In this document: in pieces, positions 99 to 49,391 of the stretch
Layout: each line of letters begins with the position of its first letter
How positions within the stretch are numbered: position 1 is the first letter of the stretch
Notes under the pieces: model-generated
Seen by the model: only the letters and a program-made list of their open reading frames with translations
What the model was told of the DNA's origin: nothing
The model's database searches: none
Translations under genes and position numbers: made by a program
Source: Chloranthus sessilifolius
Lineage: Eukaryota; Streptophyta; Magnoliopsida; Chloranthales; Chloranthaceae
Length of the DNA stretch: 64,000 nt
Direction of reading: 5' to 3'
Assembly: GCA_021018995.1 (NCBI GenBank)
Contig: CM037590.1
Coordinates: 41,108,287-41,172,286 of the forward strand

Positions 99-2721
99 CT
101 GCGATGGCCTTCGACGACTTTAGCCATGTTACCGTCATATGTAGGAACAAATATATCACTCTCCAACGATACCAAATAATCTAATGCTGCCATCTGAGAT
201 GAGTGATTCTGAAAAAGCCTGAGATCTGACGGTTCCAAAAGTGTTTCCTTTCTCACCTATATCACCAAATAAAAACAATTGAAGAGAAGAAGAGGAAAAT
301 GGAGCTGTATTAATCCCAAGGGAATTACATCATTACAAGTAATATTCTTGAGCTTCCCAACACATACCAAATTTGGATAAGCTGATGACATACTAGCCAT
401 TCTCCTTTCTCCACCATAGATTTCTCCGGCAGCAATGTAAACACGAACATTACGATCAATATCCAACGCCCTCAGAATAAGAGCAGTTTCCTCTGGTGTC
501 AATGGACAAAGACCATCTTTCCTTTTAAGATCAGAGTTTATAACTTTCTCTTTCCACCATGGGTATGCATACCTGGCAATTAAACAAACATCAGTTACTC
601 AAAGTGTCCAAATTAGAATTGAGCATTACAATTATTAATTATATTTACAAAGTAACCGTCACAAACTGCTACTAACATACCTCATTCTTGTTAATTCCTC
701 CACCTCATCATCACTGCAACCATGAGTACAACCAGAAAAGGCCAACATGTCCATCTCATATCGTAGATGAAGAACAAGAAAAGGGCCATTCTGCCGTAAC
801 AAGTTGATGACTCTTCTACCTAACTCTTCTATCTGAGAAGTAAATCTAAGAGCACCAAAATTTACTCGGCATCGCAACTTCTGAATCTCTAAAGGTAGGC
901 CATTATTAGCAAGACGAGCATCGGTTTTATTCAAATGCACAATCTTGTACTTTTGTATCAAAGGAAGAATCTGTTTGCAATTGGAATATGATAATACTGT
1001 TGTTAGCTGCTTACTAATACACAGGAGACCAAGGAAAAACTCAAAAACTTTGGTGTGAGCTTCTACAGAACAGTGAATTCACCTGATGAAGGTAGTACGA
1101 AATGTTAGACCAACTAATTGGTGGCATCGAATGGAACATTCCTAGCTCCACTCTTCTCTTTAGCCTTGGTGGCAATTCTTTCAAAATCCGAACCTCGTCT
1201 CTCAAAGATGTAATGAAATGGTCCACATCAAATATGTCTTCAAACTCACTGCAATTTAAGCTAACATGATTAAGGCAATAATGGAAAAATAACATGCCAT
1301 TTTATTTAAAGCTTAGAAAAAATTGAGAATTTTGAAGAAAGAAGTTCTTATTGACCTACCTAGGGTCGGCCCAGAATGAGGTTTTGTCCAGCTCGGGTAC
1401 TATAAGGGTCACATTTAAATATCGTGCAATAGCAACCATGTCACAAATCTGTAGGGCAGGTGCAAAAGGGAGGCTCATTGAGCTAATATCTCAAATAACC
1501 CCATAAACAGGTACAAGAGTGGAAGGATAAAAAATAAAAAAAAAAATTTACACTAAACAAGAAAATAACATGATACTACCCACCGCTGCCCGCATCTGAT
1601 TAAGCCCACCATTGCAAGAAACCATGAGATAGCCGTTGTTCTTATATAACCCTAAAGATAACACATCACAAGTTTCAGATGATTAATGACAGAAGCCCTA
1701 CAAATTTATCAAGAACGGTAAAAACTTCCTGAATTATAAAGCAAAAGTGCCTAAATGGCCTGGCACATGATACTATATACCCAAGGCCTACTTAATAACA
1801 AAAATCTGAAAAAGAGAACAGAACTCAAAAGAAACAGAGCCATTAGCAACTCAATACAGTAAAAGGTTTCATATAATTAAGCCACTAATTAAATTTTTGC
1901 AACCCAAACTTATGCCATGAGTGCATAAGATCAGACATGACAGGAACAATGCCAACATTTTAAACAATGGGTGCCATACCCATCGTCCCCGACACTTCAA
2001 TTTCAACTGTAAAAGCCGCGCACAAAGATACTCATGTCATCATGCCCATGTAACATAGGCATTGACTCCTTTATTCAATAGATATCTCCAATAATAATAA
2101 TTAAATAAATGTGTATTTCCTCATGTTCTAAAGCATCTAAAAGCACTAATCTTGACATAACATCCATATTTTTTTATCAAATTGATCAACTTGTTTACAA
2201 CCATACAACCTCTAATTTTCTATGAATCCAGAAACAAAAAACACAGATTTTCAATTCTTTTTTGCCAAAAATTAAAACCACAGTTTTCTGTAAATTGACA
2301 TTTCCTAAGCAACAAAGAGCATTTCTTAAACTCATAAAAGAAGCAAATTTCAGCAGATTAAAAACTTCAATTTGCAAGTTTAGAACGTACTTTTCGGTGG
2401 AAGCGCAATCTTCTCTGCGATTGAAGACGAGGACTTCATCGCCAACAACGGTGAATCGGAGGGCGTAAAACAAGAAGGCCAGCCTTTCAAGACCCTTGGC
2501 CCCCACATCTCCCCCAACGCAGTTAACTGAACAACACAAGTCCAAAGCAACACAGTTGTCGTAGCCCTAATCATCCAAAGCTTCATTCTCGGCCGAGAAA
2601 CCATTGAAGACCCCTTCGATTTTTCGATCTTCACTTCTCCTGATGATTTCAACCCCATATTCCTCTTTCTCTCCCTCTCAATATCACAATCGCTTTCCTT
2701 AGATTTCTCTAATCTACACAT
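99..2721 (-). CDS. O-fucosyltransferase family protein (GDP-fucose protein O-fucosyltransferase-like), 5' seven exons, 3' end outside window
   Basis: Seven minus-strand exons can be read with GT/AG sites and consistent phase: 2721-2391, 1651-1584, 1448-1360, 1248-1083, 970-681, 572-368 and 256-99. They give about 435 residues, and the gene continues past base 1. The N-terminus starts MCRLEKSK (a second Met, at residue 22, is the alternative start). A single type II membrane anchor follows at roughly residues 47-70, typical of Golgi glycosyltransferases. Exon 2 encodes [11 protein letters not shown], the conserved nucleotide-sugar loop. Exon 4 encodes the [10 protein letters not shown] block. 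Exon 5 encodes [18 protein letters not shown], the HLR-x-E motif of the plant family. Exon 6 encodes [10 protein letters not shown] and exon 7 encodes [20 protein letters not shown]. The family is predicted to transfer fucose from GDP-fucose to protein or glycan acceptors in the secretory pathway; the acceptor here is unknown. I see no lesion. The family call is firm; the subfamily member is not determined. Confidence 0.93.
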
Positions 2722-3930
2722 CGTTTAATGTATCCCTCAAATTCTTCACTTTCCCCATACAATCAGATCCCAAATGCCATTAATAATTTAGATTTAGACT
2801 TCTAACAAGAATGCCGTTCGAAAAGACCATCAGATCAAACCGATCAATAGACACAGATAAAAACCACCTCCGTTCAGATCAATGCCGCAATCAATAAAAA
2901 AATTAAAACAAAAAAACTCTCGAAAATTAAAAAAAAAAAAATCGATTAATTCAATCAAAACCCAACACTAAATCTCTATCTTCAACTGCTTCCAGATCTA
3001 TAACTCACAAATCACCAACGAATAATAATTTTTTTGTTCTAATAACAAAAATAAAATTAAATACAAACTTCTCTCTATGTCTCAACAAAATTCTTCGCAT
3101 AAATTAAAATGAACTCGGAAAAGATCCCGGCAAAAACGGCCGGGAAAATGGACTGGAGGTCGCCGGGAAAGCGATGTCTTTTTTCAAAGAGAAGAAGGCA
3201 TTTGTTGTCGGTGGCGTATATACGCAAACGCAAAGGTGGAGCCGTACGACATTCGATCGGATTTGACCATGGTTAGTTAACTCGTGTTAATTTTTCTAAC
3301 CCGCGTTCGTAGAACAGGAGGAGAGAGAGCAATGAATGCCGGCCAGCGAATTAGCCAGTTAAGGCGGTCCCACCAGTCCGGAGCCCAACACGTGCCCGCC
3401 GATCAAGCCGTTCTTTTTTGTAAACGTGGCAATTCAGTACGGGGACGATGGTTGTGAACTAAATTCTGGGGTTGTCGGGAGACCGACAATATCTCGCGAG
3501 ATCGATAATTTCGGTGGGTAATTGATATTTTGCTATATTTAGTGGGGGTGATTTTGGTAAGAGACCGTAGATACGGTGACTTTAGCGGATATTTCGTGAC
3601 CTTGGTTCCGTTAGATTCTCGTGATACAGCTTGGGGTCTCCCTTCAGTTTGTCGGTTGCGCCGTTTGAGATGGATAACGGCGTTAAATTGTCAGAACGGT
3701 CAATTAAGAGGGACGTGAGGCTCAGTCCTCAGTTTTTTTTTTTTTTGTCAAAACAGTCCTCATTTTTTCAGGCCTGTTTTTCACACTCTAAATTAATCTC
3801 CAACGAAATCGATATGTTTGCACATGGTAAAATGGTGAAATGTACAAAGAATTTAGAGATGTTTACCGTTTGTTTACATCAAAAAAGTCAAATAAACATG
3901 TGGTTACTTTATTAAACCTACACAAAAAAA
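2722..3930. other. upstream region / probable 5' UTR and promoter of the O-fucosyltransferase gene
   Basis: No coding sequence is convincing here. Just upstream of the ATG on the minus strand the sequence is rich in GA and A runs, as expected for a plant leader. A TATA-like GTATATAC lies near 3213-3220 in minus orientation and is only a weak promoter candidate. From about 3400 onward there is unique GC-richer DNA, then AT-rich DNA leading into a MITE. Confidence 0.35.
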
Positions 3931-4059
3931 TCATTGATTGCTTTGAATCAGACGATGGAGATCTTGTTTCACTTCAATCTTCGACACAAAGGATCTTTAA
4001 GCCATGAACACACCATTAGACGATCAGTTTTCGATTTCAAGTGATACAAATATCAAAAA

Positions 4060-4757
4060 TGTTGAATAAGGTTTAATTCCAACCACCGGTGTTAATCGAT
4101 TGAAGTTGATAAATCAATCGATTAAGTTTGGAAAGTCGATTGATTGAGATTGGGAAGTCAATTGATTGACTGTTAAGCGGATTCAGATCTGCAAGTTTGA
4201 ATATGTGGCTATTTTGGAAGATTGCTTTAGTCAAAATATTTCCTAATGTGATTTGGAGATTTTTTGGAAGTGTTTTGCATACTTGCAAGTTTTAGGAGAT
4301 TTGTGAGTTATGTTTCCAAAAGGGGCTTAGAGCCTATTTACAGAAAGTTCCTCTAGGGCTCCAGAAAGAGTTTGGTGAAAATTTCATATGAGAATACTTT
4401 GAGTGAAAAAGTATTGAAGAATAGCTTGGGGATTGAAGATCCGATTAAAGCCGTTCTTGTGTCAGAATCATGATTATATTCCGACAAATCTTTTCTCTAT
4501 TATTTTAAGGATTACGTCTTTGGTTTAACAACAGATTTATTGTTGAAGATCGTATTAGATCTTGATTGAATTTGCACTAGAAAGAAGAGAGAGTGTGTGT
4601 TGTAAACGTTCATAAAATTAGTACATATACTCCCGTGGACGTAGCTCTCGATTGGGTGAACCACATAAATCTTTGTGTTGTGCGTATGATTATTTTTTGC
4701 CTGAATCTTCTTATTTTTCGGTATTCATCGTTCGCAGTGTAGGTAAAATTTCTAACA
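4060..4757 (+). repeat. 5' LTR of the copia element
   Basis: It starts TGTTGAATAAGG and ends CTAACA, immediately before the tRNA-iMet primer-binding site. Its first 120 bases contain four 22-bp units centred on a CAATCGATTG-type palindrome. It aligns throughout with 8786-9508. Confidence 0.88.
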
Positions 4758-4785
4758 AGTGGTATCAGAGCGAGGTTTATGTTAC

Positions 4786-7700
4786 AATGGCGATGAAGGT
4801 ATCGAATGCACGATTCGAGGTGGAGAAGTTTTCTGGAAAGAATAACTTCGCTTTGTGACAAGTCAAGGTCACAAATCTTCTTATCTAATAAGACATTGAT
4901 GATGCCCTACTTGAAAAAAAGATGGGGAAGAAGGCAGAAATGTCTGATGAAGAGTGGAACTCTATTGATAAGAGGGCCGTAAGCACTATCCGATTGTACT
5001 AGTCCGATGAAGTTCTGTATAATGTTCTTCATGAGAAGACGACCGTGGATCTGTGGAAGAAGATGGAATCTCTCTACATGACAAAGTCGTTGTCTAACAG
5101 ACTTTTCATGAAGAAGTAACTCTACACCCTTCGTATGAAGGCTGGTACGCGTATTCATGACCATTTAAATTCGTTTAATAAAATAGTTAGTGAACTATTG
5201 AGCTTTGAGGTGAAACTTGAAAAAAAAGATCTAACACTTCTCTTGCTCACCTCATTGTCACCATCTTATGAGCACCTTGTTACCACATTAATTTATGGTA
5301 AAGATACTATTGTCGTCGAAGAAGTGACTATTGCACTTCTTTCTGACAAATTGAGAAAACAGTCTGAATCTAACTCCGAATGAATTAGTCTCTTAAGCGA
5401 AATGGGTTGAAACCATGATCACAAAAGAGACAAATCTAGAGGATATAATAAATCAACGAGAGGAAACAACAAGTCTAAATCTAGGGGTGACAGAAAGGAT
5501 ATTAGCTGTTATTTCTGTAAACAATTTGGACATATTCACAAATATTGCAAGCAGAAATTGAATAATAATAAGGGTGATGAAGGGACTTTGCAACAAGCTA
5601 GTGTTGCTAAGTCAGATTTCAGTGAAGACCTATTGTATGTATTGTTAAGCTTCAGTCAGTTTGATGATAGATGGATCCTAGATTCAGGGGCATCGTATCA
5701 CATGTGTCCGTACAGGGATTGATTTGACTAGTATAAGGTAGCCAATGGTGGAATAATTTTGATGGAGAATGACAGTGTATATGAAGCAGTGGGTATCGGT
5801 TCGATCAGAATCAAGATGTTTGATGGCTATGTTCGCACTCTTACTGAGGTTAGGCATGTATCTGATCTGAAGAAAAATCTAATCTCGTTGGGGGCATTGG
5901 ATGAGACAGGATGCCGAGTCATTCTAGAATCTGGTAAACTAAAGGTTGTACGTGGTGCTATAATCTTGATGAAAGGTGAAAAGATGGGGAATCTGTATAC
6001 TTTAGTAAATAATATAATCAGCGACAGTGGTGTTGCGGCTATAAAAGATTCCAAGAACCTCTCAGATTTGTGGCACAAGAGGCTTGGTCACATGAGTGAA
6101 TGTGGGCTGACAGAGCTCATAAAGAATAAAACAATTTCTGAAATTCAAACTTGTAAACTGAATTTTTGTGAAGATTCCATCTTCGAAAAACAGAAGAAAG
6201 TTTGTTTCTCCACTGGAAAACATACTTCGAAGTGACTGATTGATTATATACATTCAGATGTATGGGGACCGGCTAAAGTCACTTCAGTAGGTAGAGCCAA
6301 CTATTTTTTATCATTTATAGATGACTACTCCAGGAAAGTTTGATTGTCGATTAAAATAAATCAAATGTCGAAATTCAGCAAAGGGCGAGTATGATTGAAA
6401 AGCGAGCATGAGTAAAGATTCTCAAATCAAATAATGGTGGGGAATACTTGTCATCAGAGTTTACAACTTATTATAAAAATCAAGAGATTGTTAGACACTT
6501 AATAGTTCCTAAAAATCCTCAGCAAAATGGTATAGTAGAAAGGATGAACAGAACACTATTAGAAAAAGCGCGGTGTATGTTGAACCATTCCGGCTTGAGT
6601 CATGGGTTCTGGACAGAGGCAGTAAACACAACATGTTACTTGGTCAACCGATCTCCTTCAGCGGCATTGAACTCGAAAACTGCAGATGAGGTTTGGTATG
6701 AAAGACACAGGAGCTACTCTCACTTGAGGGTATTTGGATGTGCGGCTTATGCATTGCTTCAGGGAAGTGAATGACTAAGTTAGATCCAAAATCTAAAAAG
6801 TGTGTCTTGATTGGCTATGGAGAAGGAGAATGAGTCAAGGGTTATCGTTTGTGGGATACACAATCTCACAAAGTGATAGTTGAAAGAGATGTTACTTTCA
6901 ACAAAGATGAGTTTTCGATAAAAAAAGCGGAAGACAAACCTCAGTCATCTGGTGAACCTCAGGTACAAGTTGATGTTGAGAGGTATGTGCAAGATGAGAA
7001 AGATAATAAAGACTTTGAGATAGAGCATGATGGCATAATTTCTCAATACTTGTAGTCCCAGGTACCAGTTCAGACTACCTTGAGAAGATCAGAGAGGATG
7101 AAGAAACGTCCTGAAAAGTTTAAGGACATGATTCCTTTAACACTTGCACTTATCACAGAGAATGGGGAACCAAGCACAGTTCTAGAAGCTCGGGTGGATA
7201 CAGATGCAGTAAAGTGAAAGTTAGCTATGGAAGAAAATTGGTAGTCACTTTTGAAGAATGAGACCTGAGATCTCATGAAACTTTCTAAAGGGAAGAGAGT
7301 CATCGGTTGTAAATGGGTCTTTCGAAAGAAAGAAGGTGATAAGAGTAAAACTCTAAAGTTTAAAGAAAGGCTAGTTGCAAAGGGGTTTTCTCATAAAGAG
7401 AGCATCGATTATAATAAGATATTCTCTCCGATTGCGAAACACACATCGATTCGCACATTGTTGGCGGTAGTTGCTCAGAAAGATCTCGAACTAGAACAGA
7501 TAGATGTGAAAACAGTTTTTCTCCATAGAGATTTTCAGGAAGAAATTTATATGAGACAGCCAGAAGGATTTAAAGAAGAAGAGTCAGAATCACTTGTTTA
7601 CAAATTAAAGAAATCCTTGTGTGATCTCAAGCAAGCACCCAGGCAGTGGTACAGGAAGTTTGATTCAGATATGTTGGGCATAAGATATCACAGGGGACAA

Positions 7701-8785: not shown

Positions 8786-9508
8786 TGTTGAATAAGGTTT
8801 AATCCCAACCACCGGTGTCAATCGATTGAGGTTGGTAAATCAATCGATTGAGTTTGGAAAGTCAATCGATTGAGATTGGGAAGTCAATCTATTGACTGTT
8901 GAGCGGATACAGATCCGCAAGTTTGAATATGTGGCTATTTTGGAAGATTGTTTTGTCCAAAATATTTCCTAATGTGGGTTGGAGATTTTTTGGAAGTGTT
9001 TTGAATACTTGCAAGTTTTAGGAGATTTGTGAGTTATGTTTCCAAAAGGAGCATAGAGCCTATTTATAGAAAGTTCCTCTAGGAATCCAGAGAGAGCTTA
9101 GTGAAAGTTTCATGTGAGAAAACTGTGAGAATACTTTGAGTGAAAAAGTATTGAAGAATAGCTTGGGAATTGAAGATCCGATTGAAGTTGTTCTTGTGTC
9201 AAAATTGTGATTATATTCCGACAGATCTCTTTTCTTTTATTTGAAGGACTGCGTCCTTGGTTTAACAACGAATTTGTTATTGAATATCGTGTTAAATCTT
9301 GATTGAGTTTGAACTAGAGAGAAGAGAGTGTGTGTGTGTGTTATAAACATTCATAAAATTAGTGCATATATTCCCGTGGACGTAGCCCTCAATTGGGTGA
9401 ACCACGTAAATCTTTGTGTTGTGCGCATGATTATTTTTTGTCTGAATATTCTTATTTTTCCGCATTCATCGTGATAGGGACTTCGTAGTGTGGGTAGAAT
9501 TCCTAATA
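8786..9508 (+). repeat. 3' LTR of the copia element
   Basis: It begins TGTTGAATAAGG after a purine tract and ends near CCTAATA, followed by an A-run that serves as the target-site duplication. It keeps the four 22-bp palindromic units more cleanly than the 5' copy and is slightly longer because of small length differences. Confidence 0.86.
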
Positions 9509-18179: not shown

Positions 18180-21100
18180 CACCCCCAAACCTACACTTTG
18201 CTAGTCCTCGAGCAAAGCAAACTAAAAAAAATAAATGCCACTTTCGTAGGGAGCACGATTGTACTTAGCGCATACAACAAGCCTTTAAACCCCTAGGTGA
18301 TCCCTAGTGGAGGAGTTGTGTCTCCTGAGGGTTTACAGTGAAGTTACCCACAAACTTCAATAAATTCCAAACCATCGGCAAAATTGAGTTTTCAAAACAT
18401 GATTTTTTATAACATATATATTATTCAAAAACAAAAACATTAATTGTTTCAATATGTGAATCATCAATCTTAAATATTAATGTCATGTCAATCATGCTAT
18501 TATCCATTCAAATTAATCTAATGCTCAAATCGTTAGATAACTCATCCATTCATGCTTACTCGTGAAGTGTGTGCATACCCAAACCAAAATTCATTCATCT
18601 CAGAACTAGTTCAAACGGGAAACCATCGGACCTGTTGTTTAGACTCAATCCTCACTTTAGGTATACTCTTGAAATAAAATCACTCCGATGATGGGTAAGT
18701 TTTCGCACACATGTGAGAGATCAATACAAAGCAAATAAAAAGGTCTCACATAATAAATGAAGCACGATGCAATCAATGAACAAAAATAAATCTTATAAGA
18801 AGATGCTTGTATATCCTAAGCATATCATATCAAGTGTCATAAGTATCACATATTCACTCTCTATAAGGCAGTTATCAATGCAAGATCAGATCATGAAGGT
18901 CTTTTTATAGGGTTGTAATGGGGCTCAGGAAAGGGTAAGAAAGAAAGGGAAGTTGGGATTCAAAATTTCTGAGAAATCGGAAAGGAAACACTTTTTTGAT
19001 TTTTCTATTTCTCTTATTTTTCTTTTCTAATCTCTCACTATTTTTCTCAACTTTCTTTTTCTTTTGAATTTCCTTTTCTTGAAACACCTCATATTTTTTA
19101 TTATTTTTCACAATTTTCTTTTTCTTTTTCTCCCCCCTTTTTCTTTTATATTTTTGTCATACACTCTCAGTAAACACCACAACTTAGTAACTTTTCACTT
19201 ACTCTCTTTTCGTTCACTCTCATCCCTCGTTCCTAATTTCTCAGAAATAAGAAGGGTAAAGCTGAATTTTCAGAAATGGTGAAGGGTTAAAGGTTAACGT
19301 GGCTTATCAAAGAATGTATAAAGGTAAATTTTTTCAATAGGCTCAAAGGGGTACTAGAAGGATAAATTTATATGAGGTGGGGCATTTAAGCACAAACGAG
19401 CCAAAGATGGCCTTCAATCATTTCCTTAAAAGATGGTAACCTTGCCTATTTGTCTTGAGTAGATATACAGTATGTTCTAACATAATGATATGAATTTGAT
19501 TTCATGCAAAGTCACAAGCCAAAGTAAAATGTATGAGATTATACAAAGTAATTCGTATTCAAAGAAAACTCCGAAGATTGTTTCCAAAATGATTGAAGGT
19601 CATCTTTGGCTCATAAAGCTCACTGGGTTTATACAAAGTGAGATTATACAAAGTAATTCGTATTCACTCATCAATGACGAGAAATTAACTCTAAAGCTCA
19701 CTCGGTTTAGTCTCCACTAAGAACCTAAGATTCAACATTTAAAACAGTTCATCGATTCTAAGTCTTAGCTTAGTATAAGTGTAAAAATTCTAAGCATGAA
19801 TATTAAAATTACTCACAAAATATCACATTAAGCTTCATTATCCTAGATACAAGCATTCAAAATCTGACATCGATATTCTCAAAATTAAATTTACATGCAT
19901 CATCAACTAAAGTTTGAAAACAATCGTAAAATAATGTGCATGATAACTTCAAAATAATTTTTTTTTTTTAAAAAAAAATATATATATATATAAGTGACGC
20001 AAAATAGATAACCATACCCCCAAACCTAAAGATTACAATGTCCTCATTGATTGAAATAAGTAGCTCACCCCCAAACCTATTGAAAAGTACCTCAACACAA
20101 AGATCAAGTGCAGAGAATATGTGCATCAAATTGGAACATGACCAAAAATTTATTGAAGGGAATATGGTTACACTATTTTAGGGAATTGAAAACAACCTAA
20201 ACTAAAAAAACTAATATGCTAAAAATAAATATTAAAAAAAATAAAATAAAATAAAACCTAAATCCTAAATTAAACATGAATCCAACTCTGTTAATCATTG
20301 TTAGGCGGACCCATCCACCTAGGTTCACTTAAATTTATGTTCTTAGGCACAGGGAATAATTTCTCCCAAAGATCAAGGAAAAATTGATGAGACACCGCCG
20401 ATTGTATGGATGGAGGCGGCGAGACGAAAGTAGGAGATGGAGATGGGGGGACGGTGACGGAACCACATCAATTATCTCGATATCAGTATCGATGCACAGT
20501 GTAGGAGATTTGGAACGTCTTACTTTCTTTCTAGATGGTTCTCCCCAGGAAGGAAGGATCATCGGATCGAGGTCGATGATTTTAACATTGCTAGGCGCAA
20601 AAGGGACCGTCCGATGAGAGCGGCGCTCCTGCTTTTTAGCAGTCTCCTCCATCCTTGATAATCGAGCTCTGGTAAGATAGAATCGACGAGCCATGAGAAA
20701 GGTGTGCAAGAGTTAATGGAAAGTGAGCGTAAGGGTGAATATAAAGGAAAAAATTATAGAGTTGGAGTAGGAGTGGAAAGAGGTGCCCCGCAAAAAAAAA
20801 AGAAACAATAAAAAGTGTGATTTACGCTCAAGGGATCCCAAGGACGAAAAAGTAAAACAATAAAAATAATATAAAAAAAAACAAAGAAGAATCCAAATAG
20901 GATTCGGTTCCGAAAAGTGGGGTCGATTAATCGACCCTAGGAAGTCGATGCATCGACCCTTGGGGGGTCGATTAAAGCAAAGATTTTCAATCGATTGACA
21001 CAAGCGCACAAATTTTTTATTTTTTTATTTTTTTAAATTAAAATTCAAATTTAAATTAAATTTAAATTTTTTTAATATTTTTTTTTAATTAAAATTTGAA

Positions 21101-41328: not shown

Positions 41329-41415
41329 GGAAAATTTGCACTTTCGGCCCTATATGTTTGCGTATTTGCAGAAACGGCCCTATAGTTTCAACCGTTGCAT
41401 TAATGACCAGCTCCA
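41329..41415 (+). repeat. left terminal inverted repeat of the MULE
   Basis: It matches the reverse complement of 49305-49391 with one mismatch in the first 61 bases and several after that. Confidence 0.9.
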
Positions 41416-41620
41416 CTCCTAGCCGCCTCCGCCTACTCCACGTCAGCAGCGACTTATTTTAAATAATATAAAAAAAAAATTCCACCGCCTTTTAACATTA
41501 GTATAAAAGCAACTTTTACTTTCATTAGTTACTGTTACTTTTAAGTTTAACTTTTCTGAAAAAAACAAGAGAGCGGCGACAAAGCGGTAAAAGGTCACAA
41601 AGCTCACATAACAATTCCAG

Positions 41621-41953
41621 GTAATTTATTTTTTTTACATTTCAACACATTTAGTCATCCCCAATGTTTCCCACCTAATCCGATAACTTACCGATAATCT
41701 AAATTATCGGTCGATAATCTAAGTTATCGATCGATAATTTAAATTATCGATCGATAATTTAAGTTATCGGTCGATAACTTAGATTATCGACCGATAACTT
41801 AGATTATCGACCGATAACTTAGATTATCGACCGATAATTTATATTATCGACCGATATCTTAGATTATCGGTAAGTTATCGGTAGGTTAGGGGATTAGTAG
41901 TTTTTTCAAAATCACTTCTTTTGTTTATTAATTGCTTTTTATTTATATTGCAG
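41621..41953 (+). other. predicted 5' intron of the Ulp1 gene, holding palindrome array 1
   Basis: A donor CCAG|GTAATTTA at 41621 and an acceptor TATATTGCAG at 41953 bracket the array. The first ATG of the gene (41974) lies just after the acceptor. Splicing is inferred from the sites only. Confidence 0.55.
41681..41885. repeat. palindrome array 1 (20-bp unit, about 8 full units plus inverted flanks)
   Basis: Units start every 20 bp from 41706 to 41846. The GC-core block is ATCGRYCGAT and the spacer block is AAYTTAGATT or AATTTAAATT. The two outer flanks (CCGATAACTTACCGATAATC and its inverse) make the whole array one large imperfect palindrome. Confidence 0.92.
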
Positions 41954-43333
41954 TTCCTACTAAGTGATTGAAAATGACCATGACTTTAAAGTCCATCGGA
42001 AAATGTTCTGGAGTTGGTGTTAGGAAATTTTACATGCACTGTAACGAAGAGAGAAAGAAAATTTTAGATGATTCGGTATTCGGTCATCTATTTAGGATGA
42101 ATGAGAAATTAGGTTTCGTTGGAGACTTGGTTGACGCTATTTTAAGTTTTTGAAGAGAATATTTTCAAGGTCAAGAACACCAATGTACTCCCAAGAACCG
42201 ATCGATATAGCCTTGATTTTAGGCCTCAACATCTTGTTTAACTCGAGTCTGAGAAGGTTGCCGTAAAAGAGGAAACAACTATCCGATACAAATTCTTTCG
42301 GGGGAAGCCGGCGAAAAGATCTCGTATTGAAGAAATTATTGACAGTGCTGATTTATCCAATGATGAGTTTTGAAACTGTCATTATTATTTTCAGATGTTC
42401 TTTTTACTCCTGACACATACCGAAGTAGATACCAGTACTTAGACTTAGTAGATAACATTGAAGAGTTCAACAAGTTACCGTGGGGCGATAGTTTACAATA
42501 ATTTATTAGATAGTATATCAAAAGCGAAAAGTGGAGGGAAATGGCGAGAAGGTCGTAAAAGGCAATACAATATCTATGGATGCACTATCGCCTTCTGATT
42601 TGGGCGTTTGAGCACTTTCCGGTGATGCCACCGCCCTATTGGGCTTAAAGAACCATTTCCAAGGCTAATGAAATGGGAAGGCCCGAAATTCAGCCAGTAA
42701 CCTAATTTATATAGAAAAATTTCTTAAGTCTAAAGTGATTATAGAGCTTGAAGTTGAGAAGCACGAATTACAGATAAAATGGCTTCGATACTTTTTGATT
42801 CAAGAGAAATTGAAAAGAAGAAGGAAGAGACCAAGAAAGAGAAGAAGAGCCTAACTCAAGAAAATGTAGATGAATATGATGATATCCCAAGTCATCCAAC
42901 ACGAAGAAAGAGCCAAGAGCCGATTAGCCGAGATGAACAATGAGGATGACGAAGATTATAGCTACGATAACGATGATTTTGAAGTCGCTTGTACGCCAAC
43001 CAAAGGGCAAACAAGAAATTAGGCCCGAGCCAACAAGAGAGCTAGGCAACCGTGACCCGCACCTAACCAAAGAAGTGAGAGCTAAGAAAAGAATGCAAGA
43101 CTCTCGCATGGAAGTAAAAGAAATGAAAAAGAATTCGGCGTGCATTTACGTTACCGAAAAGGGCAAGCACTCACAATTGAACAACTAGGCAGAGATAAGA
43201 AGGCCTTACAAGAAGAAAATAAAGCCATACGGAAGGATCTTGATGCGGTCATCTCTCATTTAAGAAAGGTATCAAACCAAGACTTTCAATTTTAGAACAA
43301 AATCATTTCTTTACAACTTAATGCAAAATTAGC

Positions 43334-43586
43334 TGTACATTACCGGACGATATACATTATCGACCGATAATTTAAAGAGTCGATCGATAATGTACATTAC
43401 CGGACGTTATGTTACATTATTGGTCGATCATTTAAATTATCGGTCGATAATGTAAATTATCGATCGACAATGTATATTATCGATCGACAATGTATATTAT
43501 CGATCGATTACTTAAATTATCGGTCGATAATGCAGTTTTTTTTATTTTTTATTTTTTGTAATGTATATTTTTTTGCAATTATGCAG
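43334..43586 (+). other. predicted intron of the Ulp1 gene filled by palindrome array 2
   Basis: A donor-like GCT|GTACATT at 43334 and an acceptor TTATGCAG at 43586 bracket array 2, which occupies most of the intron. The pyrimidine-rich stretch before the acceptor is clear; the donor is weaker. Confidence 0.5.
43342..43528. repeat. palindrome array 2 (about 10 units)
   Basis: The GC-core blocks ATCGRYCGAY start every 20 bp from 43359 to 43519, with spacers such as AATGTAAATT and AATGTATATT that differ from those of the other arrays. One shorter 17-bp step occurs at the left end. Confidence 0.9.
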
Positions 43587-45280
43587 GATAATATTTTAAC
43601 CTCGGTGCTCTTTGACACCTTCGTTCCTTCACCCACTTACCCTCAATCAAAATCAAGCTCCTCAACCCACCACTCATCAACAAAGCCATCTCATCGCCCC
43701 AAAACCTCGCTCCTCAACAAAGCCATCATTCCAAAGGTTCCCCAAAACCAACGGTCCTCAACCAAGCCATCAGTCAAGTGCCCCAAAACCCTCGCTCATC
43801 CACCTACACAACAATCAACATTCAAAACCCGCCTCAACTTACAAATAAATCTCGCCATTAAACCTAGCCCCCAAAACCTCTCACTCCTCGACCTACTAAA
43901 CAACCCTTGGTTGATACGGGTGATGATGGTGCTCCTCTTCGGACCTTCTCGTGAGTCAGCATCACTAAAACAATTATAGTGAAACTATCATCTACCAAAA
44001 ATGAAGCCAAGGTTATGACTTGCGTGCTCGTAAGAAGAGAAAGTCCCCACCAAAGAAAGCATTAATAAAAAATGAAGATTGGTTGTAGAGGAGGAGGAGG
44101 AGGATGAGGCAATATCAATGGAGCAAAAGTATATGCTCGGTTTTGAATCGGGGAGAACGAGGACAATGTGATCGTCAATACTATCGGCCGGTGTTGAGAT
44201 CAGTTGCTCTTTGAAGGTTCTCAAAAGGGCCTTCGTGGCATGAAGTCATCGGCATTGAGAGTCCTTGAAGTTATAAATGATTCAATGTTTACGGCCAATG
44301 CCGACAAAAAGTTGGTTAAACCTGCGCCTACGTAAGGTTTCCAATATTTATTGGAAGCTCGTTTGTTTCTTTTTGTCTTTTCAATCACGACTCTTGATTA
44401 ACTTCTCTTTTGCCAATCGGACCTTGTTTATGGCGGGGAGAAAAATTTGAAAAATATATCGATAATGAAGGTATTGCTGCGCTCAGCGACCTCGATAGGT
44501 GGCAGGCCTATTGTGACGAATGGGATGTTCGTAACAATTCAAAGCCGATGGAACCACTATTGACAAATAATATCCGCGGAATTCACGCGATCGCGTGGAA
44601 GCATGCGTTTTGAATACTAAACTTCGCTTTATTTAACGTTAACGGCTTTTAAATAAAATTTATTATTTAAAATTTCGCTTTCGTTTATGTGTAGATTTAT
44701 CTTCCGATGCATAGCCAAAAACATAGCCATTGGGCATTGGCTATAATTTCATTAGTTGATCGAGAAATTAAGCTAATTGATCCAAAGAATGAGAGTGCTC
44801 AAAAAGGTTTGAAGCGCATAAAGAATGTCTATTGAATCACTTTCCGCGCCTTCTTTACACTATCGGTTTGAAGTCAGCTTTCGATCAACAGTGGAAGGTA
44901 TCGGCGTTCAACAGCGTCGTTCTCCCGATCCAAAAGAACGGTTGGGATTGCGGTGTATACATTTTGAAGTATATAGAATACTTCTCCCAACAGCGGCCTA
45001 TTGATTTCGACGATAAACATATGCAACAATTTAGAGCCGAAATCGGACATCGAATGTGCACGTTTGGGAAGAAAATTTAATATCTGTAATAAATTTTAGT
45101 GTTTTGTAAAGATATTTTTTGATGAAATTGTAAATTATTTAATTTTATTAATTTTTATTAACTTGTATAATTTTCATTATCGTTGTTATCAATTATTTAT
45201 CTTATTTGTATCACCTTGCATGATGTATCAATGGAGGCTTCCTCTCTTGAAGCAATTCCAATAGGCGGATGACTTATATC

Positions 45281-45640
45281 ATCGGCCGATAATTTAAATC
45301 ATCGTCCGATATCTTAAATTATCAGCCGATATTTTAAATAATCGGACGATAGCTTAAATTATTGGCCGATGATTTAAATTATCGGCCGATATCTTAAATC
45401 ATCGGGCGATGATTTAAACTATCGGCCGATATCTTAAATCATCGGGCGATGATTTAAATTATCGGCCGATATTTTAAACCATCGGCCGATAATTTAAATG
45501 ATCGCCCGATGATTTAAGATATCGGCCGATAATTTAAAACATCGGACGATATTTTAAACCATCGGCCGATAATTTAAATGATCGCCCGATGATTTAAGAT
45601 ATCGGCCGATAATTTAAATCATCGGCCGATGATTTAAGAT
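45281..45640. repeat. palindrome array 3 (18 units of exactly 20 bp)
   Basis: Eighteen consecutive units with no insertion or deletion fill 360 bp. Odd 10-mers are ATCGGCCGAT or one-change variants (ATCGGGCGAT, ATCGCCCGAT, ATCGGACGAT). Even 10-mers are AATTTAAATC-like or GATTTAAATT-like. It lies between the 3' ends of the two convergent MULE genes. Confidence 0.97.
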
Positions 45641-46005
45641 ATACCTTTCTGAATTGTGAAGTCTGATATCTTTGGTTTGGCTTTATGCCAATCACTAGTA
45701 AATTAGGGGCGAATTTGGAAACTTTCAAATCCTGTTTGAATGAATGAATGATTTATTAAGAAGCACAACAATATATTTTAGTCACAATTCCAAAAAAATA
45801 TATTAAAAGACATTGTAGATGTTGATCGCTCTTTTATTGAGGTTTAATCTGTTTATATTGAAGGAAAGAAAAAGAGAAAAAAAAAAATACTCTTCTATAA
45901 TGAAATCATTGGAAGCTCGATTGCCACTAGGTCTAATCTAATCTAAATCATTTTCAATCTCAACCTTTGATGTAATATAAGTTAATTTCAAATATTAACA
46001 AATTT

Positions 46006-48618
46006 TTACCTACGACGATTATGACCGTACTTGTTACAATTTTTACATTGTAGTGGTCGAACTTCCCCTTTAGATCTTGTTCTCCTTTTCTTCGGACGGC
46101 CGGCTTGACGTATTTTGTGGGAGGCAAAACTTGAATGTCTTTTATTTGCGAAGTCCATTGGCGCTTGTCAACGGTCGGGACAAAGTGTTCTTTATAAGTT
46201 TCCCTAAATAAGTCACTGGTAAACCAGTGTTCACAAAATTGGGGATCTCTCTTTCTGTTTTGCCGATAATGCGGCAATCGCATGTGAACATGGTAATCCA
46301 AGAATAGCCCAACGTGCATGTACATGTTCGCGATTCTAGATCGACAACCGTGAGTGTAATCACCACGTTTAACGAAATATATCACGACCATATGGTATGG
46401 CGTTTTTTGACGGCCCATCTGAATTTCTTTTATGTGTTTTTTACGCCATTGTTAACATGTGTCATTTATTTCCTTCCTCGGCAACGGAAGATAAAATTCG
46501 GCTACTTTTGTGCGAATAGTTTCTAACATGCTCACAATCGGTTCCTCCTCGCTATTTTCAACACTATTTATGCTTTCACTATATTAGTTGTCAACATATC
46601 ATAACGCCTCCCTTGAAATAAGCGCTGAAATGTTCACCAATTTCTTTAATCCATTTTGTACATTCCGGCGGGGCGTCGTCTTCTATTTTTCGCGTAATTC
46701 TTTTAAATTTTGCTTCTGAAAATGCACGGGCAGCAGCCCAAGAAAGCGGTCTAGAGATTGTATCCTCATATTTATCAAACCAATTTAGAGCGGTGTATAC
46801 TGAAAGGCATTAGGAAAAACTTTTTCTACTGCTTCCATCAAACCTTTCTGTCTGTCTGATATCAAAACAAACTGTTTTTCAAATTCACCGATTACACGTC
46901 TCCCTAATAGATCAAGAAACCATGTCCAATGGTCTTCATTTTCTTTCGGTACAACGCTATAGGAAATAAATGTCTATTCCCGTCTATCCCCGTAGCTATT
47001 AACAACACTCCCTTATATCGTCCACGCAAATGCGTTCCATCTACCGCAATTATTCTTCGTAAAGTATTGCGAAAGCTTCGAATGCAAGGTCCGAATGCCA
47101 CGAAGAATCTCTGAAATGCATTATCAGGCTCGAGACACAATTATCTCATATGTCCGGATCGACCAGAATTCGGCAACATATGACGGTAACATCTTAAATT
47201 GCTCCTCCCAACTACCTCGGATGTCATTCAATGCCATTTCTTTTCCTCTCCATGCTTTCCAAGAACCCTCGTTATCTATTTTTTTCAATATCAAAAATTA
47301 TTGAAGCAGGAGTCTCGTCAAAACCCTTTAATAGTTTATCTCTAACGAATGAAGCTATCCACGATGTCGTACATTGGCGATGTCCGCTTCCAAAAGCTGG
47401 CATTCCGCACGTGTGTTCCGGGTGGAAAGTTTTCACAGCAAACGTGTCTACGCCTACTAATTTCGATGCATGTATTCGCCAAGCACATCCTACTTCAACA
47501 CACCTCGCAGTTACTCGAAGAGGACTGGTTTTTATTGGTTTAATCTGAAAATTATTTGTCATCGCAAATTCTTTAAGAACTTTTTGAAATGATTTCTTAT
47601 TTCTAAACGCCTGACCAATGGTAATCGTTCCCCCTTCATACAGTTCCTCATCGTCTGAATCCATGTACTCCCCTTCCGAGTCATTAAGCTGATAGTCTTC
47701 GTCCACCAGAGGTTGATCAATTCCCCTATTAGTATAAACACGCGAAGTGGGAGACGGCGGGGCTTCATTATTTTCAGGATCACTATCACCGTCATCGACT
47801 GGATGGTTATTACGTGATTGGGATTGAGCCCATCGATGTACGCTTGGTTGATGTGCAGTTGTTTGGATTGATGTTAGCCGATGCGAGAACGTTTGATGTA
47901 TGAGAGGCTGTTCTGTTGAAGGCTCGATTATCGTTGGCTCCGAAGCTATTTGTTCGGAAGGCCATTGATATGGACTAAGGCCGACTAAAAACGTTTCCCA
48001 CTGATTTACCGAATCGAAGTTGAACTGAGATGTATCATGCATCGGATTCATTTGATGAGAATATCCTTGATCTTCATCGCCTTCACTCACTCATGAATGT
48101 CTGAATAGGGTTGCTCTGAAAGTTTACTGTAGGGGCGGAATCCTATATTTATATTTCTATCATCGTCGGCTATTATCGGTGCAACAATGTTCTCCTCTTC
48201 ATACCGTATTCCTTGATTTTCAATCAAATGTTCTGTTCCAACACCATGATCATCTTCGTTGGTTTCCTTAAACGGTTGAAATGTTTCTAAAGCGGCAAAA
48301 TTTACGCTGATGGTGACTAATGATTTTTCGATATAAATATTTATAACACCATCACCCATACGATATGCTCTAAATAAGTTTGTAAGATCATCAGAGTCAG
48401 TCAATTCGGCAAATACAAGCTCATTCCCTATGCGTAATGAAACAAAGAAATGTAATAGAATATTCTTCCTTAGTGTCCGATCGACTTTGTACATTTTCTC
48501 TATAAACTCAAAGAAATGATATATTCTCCGTGATGTTGACAATCCTCCGATGTCCTCCGTTGTAAGTATTATCTCTCACGCGTACGAAATCAAAATGGCA
48601 AAGAAGGGGAACATCCAT
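46006..48618 (-). pseudogene. MuDR-type MULE transposase gene, decayed
   Basis: Translation begins MDVPLLCHFDFVRVRDNTYN at 48618, just after a predicted intron, and continues into a PB1-like amino region (to about 48090). Next is the MuDR zinc-finger DNA-binding domain (about 47560-47330: GQAFRNKKSFQKVLKEFA.., RCVEVGCAWRIHASK, FHPEHTC). The DDE core follows, with the first Asp in IIAVDGTHLRGRYKG (about 47040) and the second in ISDRQKGL (about 46850). A SWIM zinc finger (CTCTLGYSWITMFTC, about 46300) and a carboxy-terminal CCHC-like knuckle (CKNCNKYGHNRR, about 46040) end at a stop at 46006. Several frameshifts and stops break it: one near 48090, others around 47270, 46900 and 46420. Domain order and length (about 870 residues) fit autonomous MULE transposases. 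Confidence 0.85.
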
Positions 48619-48624
48619 TTCAAC

Positions 48625-49144
48625 CTACAATATTTACAAAATTAAAATTAAAATTAGTTGTTTATAAAGAGTTATACTTGACTTAGCGCTACAATTGCTT
48701 AAAAATATTATTAAAAAAATTAAAGGAATGAAAACTTTAGAGTTTTTGTCAATCATAGGTTATCGCTCGATATCCTAAGATATATAGCCGATGGATGGAC
48801 TTTTAACGTAAACCATAATCCAAAAACAAAAAAAAAAACCTCTTAAGTTATCAGCCGATAACTTAAGATATCGACCGATATCTTAAGATATCGTTATCGG
48901 CCGACATCTTAAGTTATCGGCCGACATCTTAAGTTATCGGTAACATCTTAAGATATCGTCGATATCTTAAGATATCTCGATAACTTAAGATATCGACGGA
49001 AACTTAAGATATCGGTCGATATCTTAAGATATCGGTCGATATCTTAAGTTATCGACCGATATCTTAAGATATCTTGGACTTCCTACGATGTTGCGAGAAA
49101 TTTGGAAAACAATAACTTAAAAGATATTGTACTCGATATCTTAC
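48625..49144 (-). other. predicted 5' intron of the transposase gene, holding palindrome array 4
   Basis: On the minus strand a donor CTAG|GTAAGATATC at 49144 and an acceptor AATATTGTAG at 48625 bracket array 4. The ATG is six bases into the next exon. Inferred from splice-site sequence only. Confidence 0.55.
48841..49074. repeat. palindrome array 4 (about 11-12 units)
   Basis: Units alternate ATCGACCGAT or ATCGGCCGAC with ATCTTAAGAT or ATCTTAAGTT. Period is 20 bp with a few small indels in the middle. Many 20-bp windows are perfect palindromes. Two weaker units lie at 48760-48790. Confidence 0.92.
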
Positions 49145-49304
49145 CTAGCCTGTTGTATTCTCTATGTTATACGACCTTTAGTGGAATCTCGAAATCGCTT
49201 TCCAAGAGAGATAAAAATTGTTAAAAGATGGTACAAAAATTCTAGATTCAATGCTTGCATAGAGAAGCATATATATAGATATCTGACGTGCACCCGGCTA
49301 GGCT

Positions 49305-49391
49305 TGGAGCTGGCCATTTATGCAAGGATTGAAACTATAGGGCCGTTTCTGCAAATACGCAAACATATAGGGCCGAAAGTGCAAATTTCCC
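49305..49391 (-). repeat. right terminal inverted repeat of the MULE
   Basis: Reverse complement of 41329-41415; followed directly by the ATATATATA duplication. Confidence 0.9.

Follow-up and report, generated by a model that had tools for sequence, protein, structure and literature searches.

VANC proteins of Arabidopsis VANDAL elements bind tandem-repeated motifs in the noncoding DNA of their own family and remove methylation there (PMC5735166). These proteins carry DUF1985, and both VANC21 and VANC6 act through tandem repeats of short motifs in noncoding DNA; in the case of VANC21, the target repeats are located in introns of VANC21 and VANB21 as well as upstream of VANA21 (PMC5735166). 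VANC genes bearing Ulp1 are said in a review to act in the same way as VANC21 and VANC6 (PMC13317346). Here, we describe a Mutator-like element (MULE) of Chloranthus sessilifolius that combines a MuDR-type transposase gene and DUF1985 and Ulp1 coding regions with four arrays of a phased 20-bp unit. The element lies in a stretch of 64,000 nucleotides, referred to as the window (C7:41108287-41172286 in the 2.17-Gb genome; 35.6% G+C). We propose that its arrays are the DNA targets of a VANC-type anti-silencing system, a reading to which we assign a probability of roughly 55%.

An initial annotation had noted four separated arrays of a 20-bp unit within a single MULE, and these proved to be real: at closely similar positions, period search detects arrays of period 20 or 60 (41690-41869, 43334-43532, 45274-45637 and 48841-49073). 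The repeat unit can be written as ATCG-NN-CGAT-NNN-N-TA-N-NNN and is normally exactly 20 bp long, its constant parts being the ATCG..CGAT of a GC block and the central TA of an AT block. Arrays 1 to 4 of the window copy contain 8, 9, 18 and 8 GC-block centres, respectively, spaced by exactly 20 bp all through arrays 1 and 3 and with some other spacings in arrays 2 and 4. Across 18 sequences, 560 successive exact centres lie no more than 65 bp apart, and 539 of these are separated by 20 bp (498), 40 bp (28) or 60 bp (13). Conservation within the unit was assessed using 688 internal units, taken from chains of four or more centres in 22 sequences (chain ends removed, missed units filled in register). 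Constancy reaches 99% for the central TA of the AT block and 90-98% for the ATCG/CGAT positions, with other positions at 47-85%; unit finding made no use of the central TA or of the outer A/T of the GC block. Because neutral tandem repeats would vary alike at every position, we infer constraint on both the core and the phase of the unit.

The arrays had also been described as two alternating 10-bp palindromes. The dyads themselves stand: near-perfect dyads, with at most one of 9 pairs unmatched, number 7, 3, 10 and 11 in window arrays 1 to 4, compared with means of 0.32, 0.21, 0.52 and 0.20 and maxima of 3, 4, 3 and 2 in 500 dinucleotide shuffles per array, although array 2, when taken alone on this measure, does not exceed its highest shuffle. 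They do not amount to two separate facts, as a tandem repeat of a self-complementary unit necessarily has two dyad centres per period. Furthermore, the GC block is often imperfect, with a self-complementary central dinucleotide in 20 of 41 units.

To place the window copy within its family, related loci were retrieved by three routes. A query with array 1 gave 1538 first-look candidates, of which 40 were scored (95 matching pieces) and 20 loci fetched. All 20 belong to the same element: 16 contain near-full elements, 88-95% identical by aligned piece, L018 is a deletion derivative, L023 aligns over the first 2.2 kb only, and L025 and L028 were fetched on the wrong side, yet each begins with the element. 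A transposase query gave 1574 first-look candidates; all 40 scored were 98-100% identical, and the four copies analysed also run end to end. The third route, a pattern of two consecutive units, occurs 6753 times genome-wide (0 times for the reversed control), and among the approximately 100 matches listed the clusters are all on C1 and mostly paired at element spacings of 1.8-3.6 kb. Both loci fetched on the basis of this pattern alone are family members: L041 is 82% identical with all four arrays in place, and L042 is 76% identical over element positions 1497-7033, a stretch that spans the places of arrays 2 and 3 only, both of which are present.

It was found that the position of each of the four arrays is shared by all 21 near-full copies, that of the window included. 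The number of units differs between copies, indicating gain and loss: the largest unbroken run ranges from 3 to 14 units in array 1, 7 to 16 in array 2, 5 to 20 in array 3 and 2 to 14 in array 4, the smallest being those of L040 (3, array 1) and of L016 and L040 (2 each, array 4). Each place has its own flavour of AT block, as scored in 17 copies for pairs exactly 20 bp apart. Array 4 has CTTAAG in 114 of 114 blocks, and array 3 has TTAA in 193 of 194, with CTTAAG in only 2; TGTA/TACA is found in 52 of 115 blocks of array 2, a type shared with array 2 of L041 and L042, and TTAGA/TCTAA in 69 of 134 blocks of array 1. Place-specific flavours argue that the arrays are old and inherited as opposed to chance captures, and the places and flavours shared with L041 and L042 indicate that they are orthologous and predate the subfamily split. 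The expectation that the arrays would occur at the same four places in every copy and nowhere else is borne out in the loci opened, a minority of the 6753 pattern sites: 40 array-1 candidates were scored, and all 20 of those fetched proved to be family members, as did both loci fetched by pattern. In L042, TTAGCG or CGCTAA replaces TTATCG or CGATAA in some units, and a half-site shift in recognition within this diverged subfamily is possible.

The element has clear terminal inverted repeats (TIRs) of approximately 100 bp; the alignment of the two ends, which takes in a few TA bases of the flanks, has 103 of 111 bp identical (Table 1). A 9-bp target duplication was scored in 17 other copies (9/9 in 16, 8/9 in L009), with a 3' boundary slip of up to 2 bases permitted and several cases inside simple TA or A runs. 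Duplications of this length are a trait of the VANDAL clade, but are common to many other MULE clades. In the transposase gene, Pfam identifies DBD_Tnp_Mut (6.6e-14) in the window copy and the MULE domain at 8.3e-4 in one frame, under its cut-off, or 8.1e-12 in stitched pieces. Regular expressions match SWIM in 11 and CCHC in 6 of 18 copies, and neither pattern in the window copy; both are listed as transposase motifs of the VANDAL clade in a clade table (PMC6446971). In gene 1, DUF1985 was matched in open frames of L019 (2.2e-9, 37.8 bits) and L016 (1.3e-10, 41.8 bits; curated cut-off 35.1), as was the related plant mobile domain (PMD). DUF1985 was not matched by Pfam in the stitched pieces of the window copy, where the frame is broken, and the greater part of the L019 frame, searched against the PDB, gave no match up to E 0.1. 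The DUF1985 and C48 domains are on the same strand and in that order, with the array-2 region between them; from its sequence, the element's second gene apparently encodes a DUF1985 protein with a C-terminal Ulp1 SUMO-protease domain.

Table 1 Features of the element, in window coordinates.
Feature	Position	Strand	Remarks
Mutator-like element	41329..49391	.	8.06 kb; terminal inverted repeats; end-to-end alignment with 16 other near-full copies
5' terminal inverted repeat	41329..41425	+	self-alignment of element ends
Array 1	41681..41885	.	before gene 1 start, possible 5'-untranslated region (UTR) intron; period search
Gene 1 N-terminal part, DUF1985 / plant mobile domain	41974..42690	+	frame broken in window copy; Pfam matches in L019 and L016
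Array 2	43336..43534	.	within gene 1, possible intron; period search
Gene 1 proline/serine-rich coding tandem repeat, units of ~42-44 bp	43673..43790	+	
Gene 1 C-terminal part, Ulp1 protease (Peptidase_C48)	44700..45080	+	Pfam 1.6e-10 in one frame; 3.9e-16 in stitched pieces
Array 3	45274..45645	.	between 3' ends of both convergent genes; period search
MuDR-type transposase gene	45960..48630	-	frame broken in window copy; convergent to gene 1
Lone extra unit	48755..48790 (near)	.	close to array 4
Array 4	48841..49078	.	upstream of transposase gene; period search
3' terminal inverted repeat	49295..49391	-	self-alignment of element ends

Just before the start of gene 1, array 1 is flanked by CAG/GTAATT (GT near 41621) and TTGCAG/TTCC (AG near 41953). 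These splice-like sequences match exactly in 16 (5') and 17 (3') of 18 copies, and so array 1 may lie in a 5'-UTR intron of gene 1. Near array 2, an AG-like end (TTATGCAG/GATAAT) matches exactly in 13 of 18 copies, and this array is possibly located in an intron of gene 1 as well. In the window copy, every frame has at least one stop within array 2. A necessary intron, based on stops generated by the period in all frames, was considered and dropped, as one frame stays open across the greater part of the array.

Two signals in the alignments relate to methylation. Decay of CpG to TG/CA in a 17-copy alignment amounts to 6.1-6.5% in coding and 0-2.9% in non-array noncoding regions, and to 0.3, 1.7, 3.2 and 3.6% in arrays 1 to 4, the value for array 1 being the lowest of any region that has two or more CpG sites. 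The rate of decay divided by that of other transitions in each region is 0.07, 0.6, 1.5 and 1.1 for arrays 1 to 4, where misaligned units inflate the figure for other transitions, and above 2 in regions outside the arrays, save for one region with a single CpG site. An alignment-free count finds 1309 of 1376 CpG places in the units intact.

The second signal concerns discordance between copies. At CAG/CTG it is 26.7% at 97 coding sites versus 7.0% at 19 noncoding sites (p 2.5e-8), and at CCG 14.5% versus 3.7%. Among the noncoding CAG/CTG sites, 12 in the two terminal regions show 0-4% and 7 internal sites 4-37%. Across window positions 41974-48630 and copies L009-L027, the differences take the form of short scrambles clustered at CAG/CTG and CCG in coding DNA. 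We take such scrambles at CHG sites to resemble base-calling errors at methylated cytosines. That the copies differ mainly at CHG sites suggests that methylation-linked sequencing errors remain in the assembly. If so, the body of the element would be CHG-methylated and the ends would not, which fits the CMT-type body methylation described for VANDAL (PMC10398659). It also follows that frameshifts in the assembly are no proof of dead genes, broken frames being unreliable, and other methylated repeats of this genome may likewise have reading frames that only seem broken. The low CpG decay of array 1 and the low CAG/CTG discordance near the ends provide indirect hints of methylation removal.

Taken together, the element encodes DUF1985, as judged from L019 and L016, whose frames are open, and has dense tandem arrays of a short motif, with arrays 1, 3 and 4 outside the coding parts and array 2 inside gene 1, that gain and lose units between copies. 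The placement of the arrays, their changing unit number, the uneven conservation of the motif and the motif-free TIRs of the window copy fit VANC-type targeting. We propose that the DUF1985 product would bind the arrays of its own family members, probably as a dimer on CGAT-NNN-NTAN-NNN-ATCG sites every 20 bp, or approximately two helical turns; such a dimer would explain core, symmetry and phase alike. With the target sites beside and inside both genes, dense occupancy could keep the adjoining promoters and introns clear of CG methylation and RNA-directed silencing. The unsilenced element would then produce transposase and the family would spread, with host genes left untouched. As a matter of speculation, the Ulp1 part could act on SUMO-modified silencing proteins. 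In the fullest version of this scheme, which we consider distinctly doubtful, a DUF1985-Ulp1 dimer would coat the phased, two-sided arrays, tether the SUMO protease to introns and promoters and strip SUMO from silencing factors locally, amounting to a sequence-addressed deSUMOylation that counters silencing through a palindromic site with the same reading on either strand.

Several observations weigh against VANC-type targeting. Covariation across the dyads is not seen within arrays (0 of 20 position pairs), and thus dyad symmetry is not independently shown as selected; when shuffling is done across arrays, 3 of 20 pairs reach p below 0.05, reflecting differences between the arrays. CpG decay in arrays 2-4 is below that of coding regions, but not below that of other noncoding regions, and therefore these arrays are not singled out. 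An open frame of 202 codons (43371 to 43979) covers most of array 2 and continues into the proline-rich segment of gene 1; a comparable one occurs in L009, and array 2 might be translated in part. It is also possible that DUF1985 and C48 belong to two different products. No large array was found near three other DUF1985 genes (L043 and L044 of one family, L045 of another) within 1.6-1.9 kb upstream: L043 has just a 26-bp repeat of fewer than 3 copies, and L044 and L045 no array, in fetched pieces of 3.0, 2.0 and 1.9 kb that reach 1.9, 1.6 and 1.7 kb upstream, respectively, and would miss arrays located elsewhere. These three were drawn from 150 scored genes, all above the DUF1985 cut-off and many with open frames, out of 4046 first-look candidates genome-wide, which suggests that this one plant harbours VANC-like genes in very large number. 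Finally, PMD/DUF genes are present in many plant MULE clades according to the table in PMC6446971, and the motif of VANC21, YAGTATTAY, is described as non-palindromic and in one orientation (PMC5735166), in contrast to the self-complementary, phased 20-bp unit observed here.

The main rival, which we regard as unlikely, is that a host protein, either a transcription factor or a chromatin protein, binds the arrays, which would then act as an enhancer, insulator or nucleosome-free spacer. This would agree with arrays beside and inside genes, and with the strict phasing and conserved core; in addition, the half-sites are GATAA-like, which we take to resemble known plant motifs. However, a host site would be expected elsewhere too, whereas the 20 array-1 loci fetched of 40 scored, and the two loci fetched for the pattern with its 6753 sites, all lie within the element, and the family's own protein is the simpler partner.

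Less probable again is that the arrays represent internal transposase-binding sites of the subterminal-repeat type, aiding assembly of the transposition complex. The element does possess a MuDR-type DNA-binding domain, and binding arrays near the ends are known for other DNA transposons. Nevertheless, arrays 2 and 3 sit 2-4 kb inside the element, and the arrays follow gene boundaries as opposed to ends. We rejected transposase sites because neither 110-bp end of the window copy contains ATCG, CGAT or a longer motif. Of the functions initially suggested, an ordered binding array for a dimeric protein fares best and is supported in part; among the binders named with it, the element's other product, that of the DUF1985-Ulp1 gene, is the likeliest, with the transposase less likely given the absence of the motif from the TIRs.

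A structural or hairpin-RNA device was also suggested initially. We considered it in the form of strand-symmetric arrays that would form cruciforms, or of hairpin transcripts that would feed or evade small-RNA pathways. The arms of array 3 are indeed 86% complementary over 183 nt, but this follows from any self-complementary repeat. The actual order of units does not exceed permuted orders in hairpin character (mean z 0.32, 0.44, 0.65 and -0.07 over 17, 15, 14 and 13 arrays) and thus lends no support, nor do the variable positions covary across the dyads within arrays; on these two grounds we set the device aside as very improbable. Least credible of all are functionless, satellite-like expansions or captured satellite DNA: unit numbers do vary widely over the 21 copies, as tandem repeats would, but the very uneven conservation by position, the strict phase, and the same four places with place-specific flavours, in the near-full copies and in the 82%-identical L041, speak against this proposal, and captured satellite DNA in particular is contradicted by the places and flavours.

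Two loci contain breaks at arrays. In L018 (element part 186-4844), the junction of the deletion fuses array 3 to array 4 (element 4143 to 7526), with loss of the transposase, and the match of L023 ends inside array 2 (element 2158). On the evidence of the L018 junction, the arrays seem to be recombination points. Elsewhere in the window, 22-bp tandem repeats built on the palindrome TCAATCGATTGA occur at 4080-4170 and 8815-8890, in the two long terminal repeat-like ends of a retrotransposon that is copia-type by eye. These repeats, at 4114 and 8817, are unrelated to the MULE arrays, and the retrotransposon is a second element with palindromic repeats of regulatory appearance. A short tandem repeat at 20922-20975 contains the palindrome GTCGATTAATCGAC.

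A family with thousands of sites, whose copies each have four orthologous arrays with an invariant core and a phase of 20 bp, would make specificity, dimerisation and cooperativity directly testable, and would bear on how DNA is recognised by VANC proteins and on why the targets come as tandem repeats. If VANC-type targeting is correct, the 2.17-Gb genome of this plant would hold a highly abundant DNA transposon family moulded by an anti-silencing arms race, with an element that has retained both distinct terminal repeats and an Ulp1 domain.

We know of no internal arrays in the ULP1-bearing MULEs of melon, grapevine and rice. Those elements, named in PMC13317346, resemble the present one in being MULEs with an Ulp1 protease gene. 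Kaonashi/KIU likewise has Ulp1 on a VANC-like gene, and motifs in noncoding regions of its own group are said to be recognised; it differs in that these are described as non-TIR MULEs (PMC13317346), whereas the present element has TIRs. Similarly, VANDAL TIRs are described as degenerate (PMC10398659), in contrast to the clear ~100-bp repeats found here. We saw no counterpart to a unit with dyad symmetry and fixed phase, combined with genuine TIRs and Ulp1, in the literature searched, though work on VANC evolution in eudicots could contain one. The general kind is established: the initial annotation knew of no MULE with internal arrays of this design, but family-specific motif arrays in the noncoding DNA of a DUF1985-bearing MULE are already known from Arabidopsis, in VANDAL elements (PMC5735166). 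VANDAL6/VANC6 has its own motif (AGTTGTCC / AGTTGTAC) in noncoding tandem repeats, distinct from that of VANC21 (PMC5735166), although this motif is unrelated in sequence to the present unit and is not palindromic. VANDAL21 (Hiun) and VANC21 resemble the present system in that a DUF1985 protein is encoded beside a MULE transposase, and arrays of a short motif with dynamic repeat number are located in introns, in intergenic DNA and upstream of the transposase (PMC5735166).

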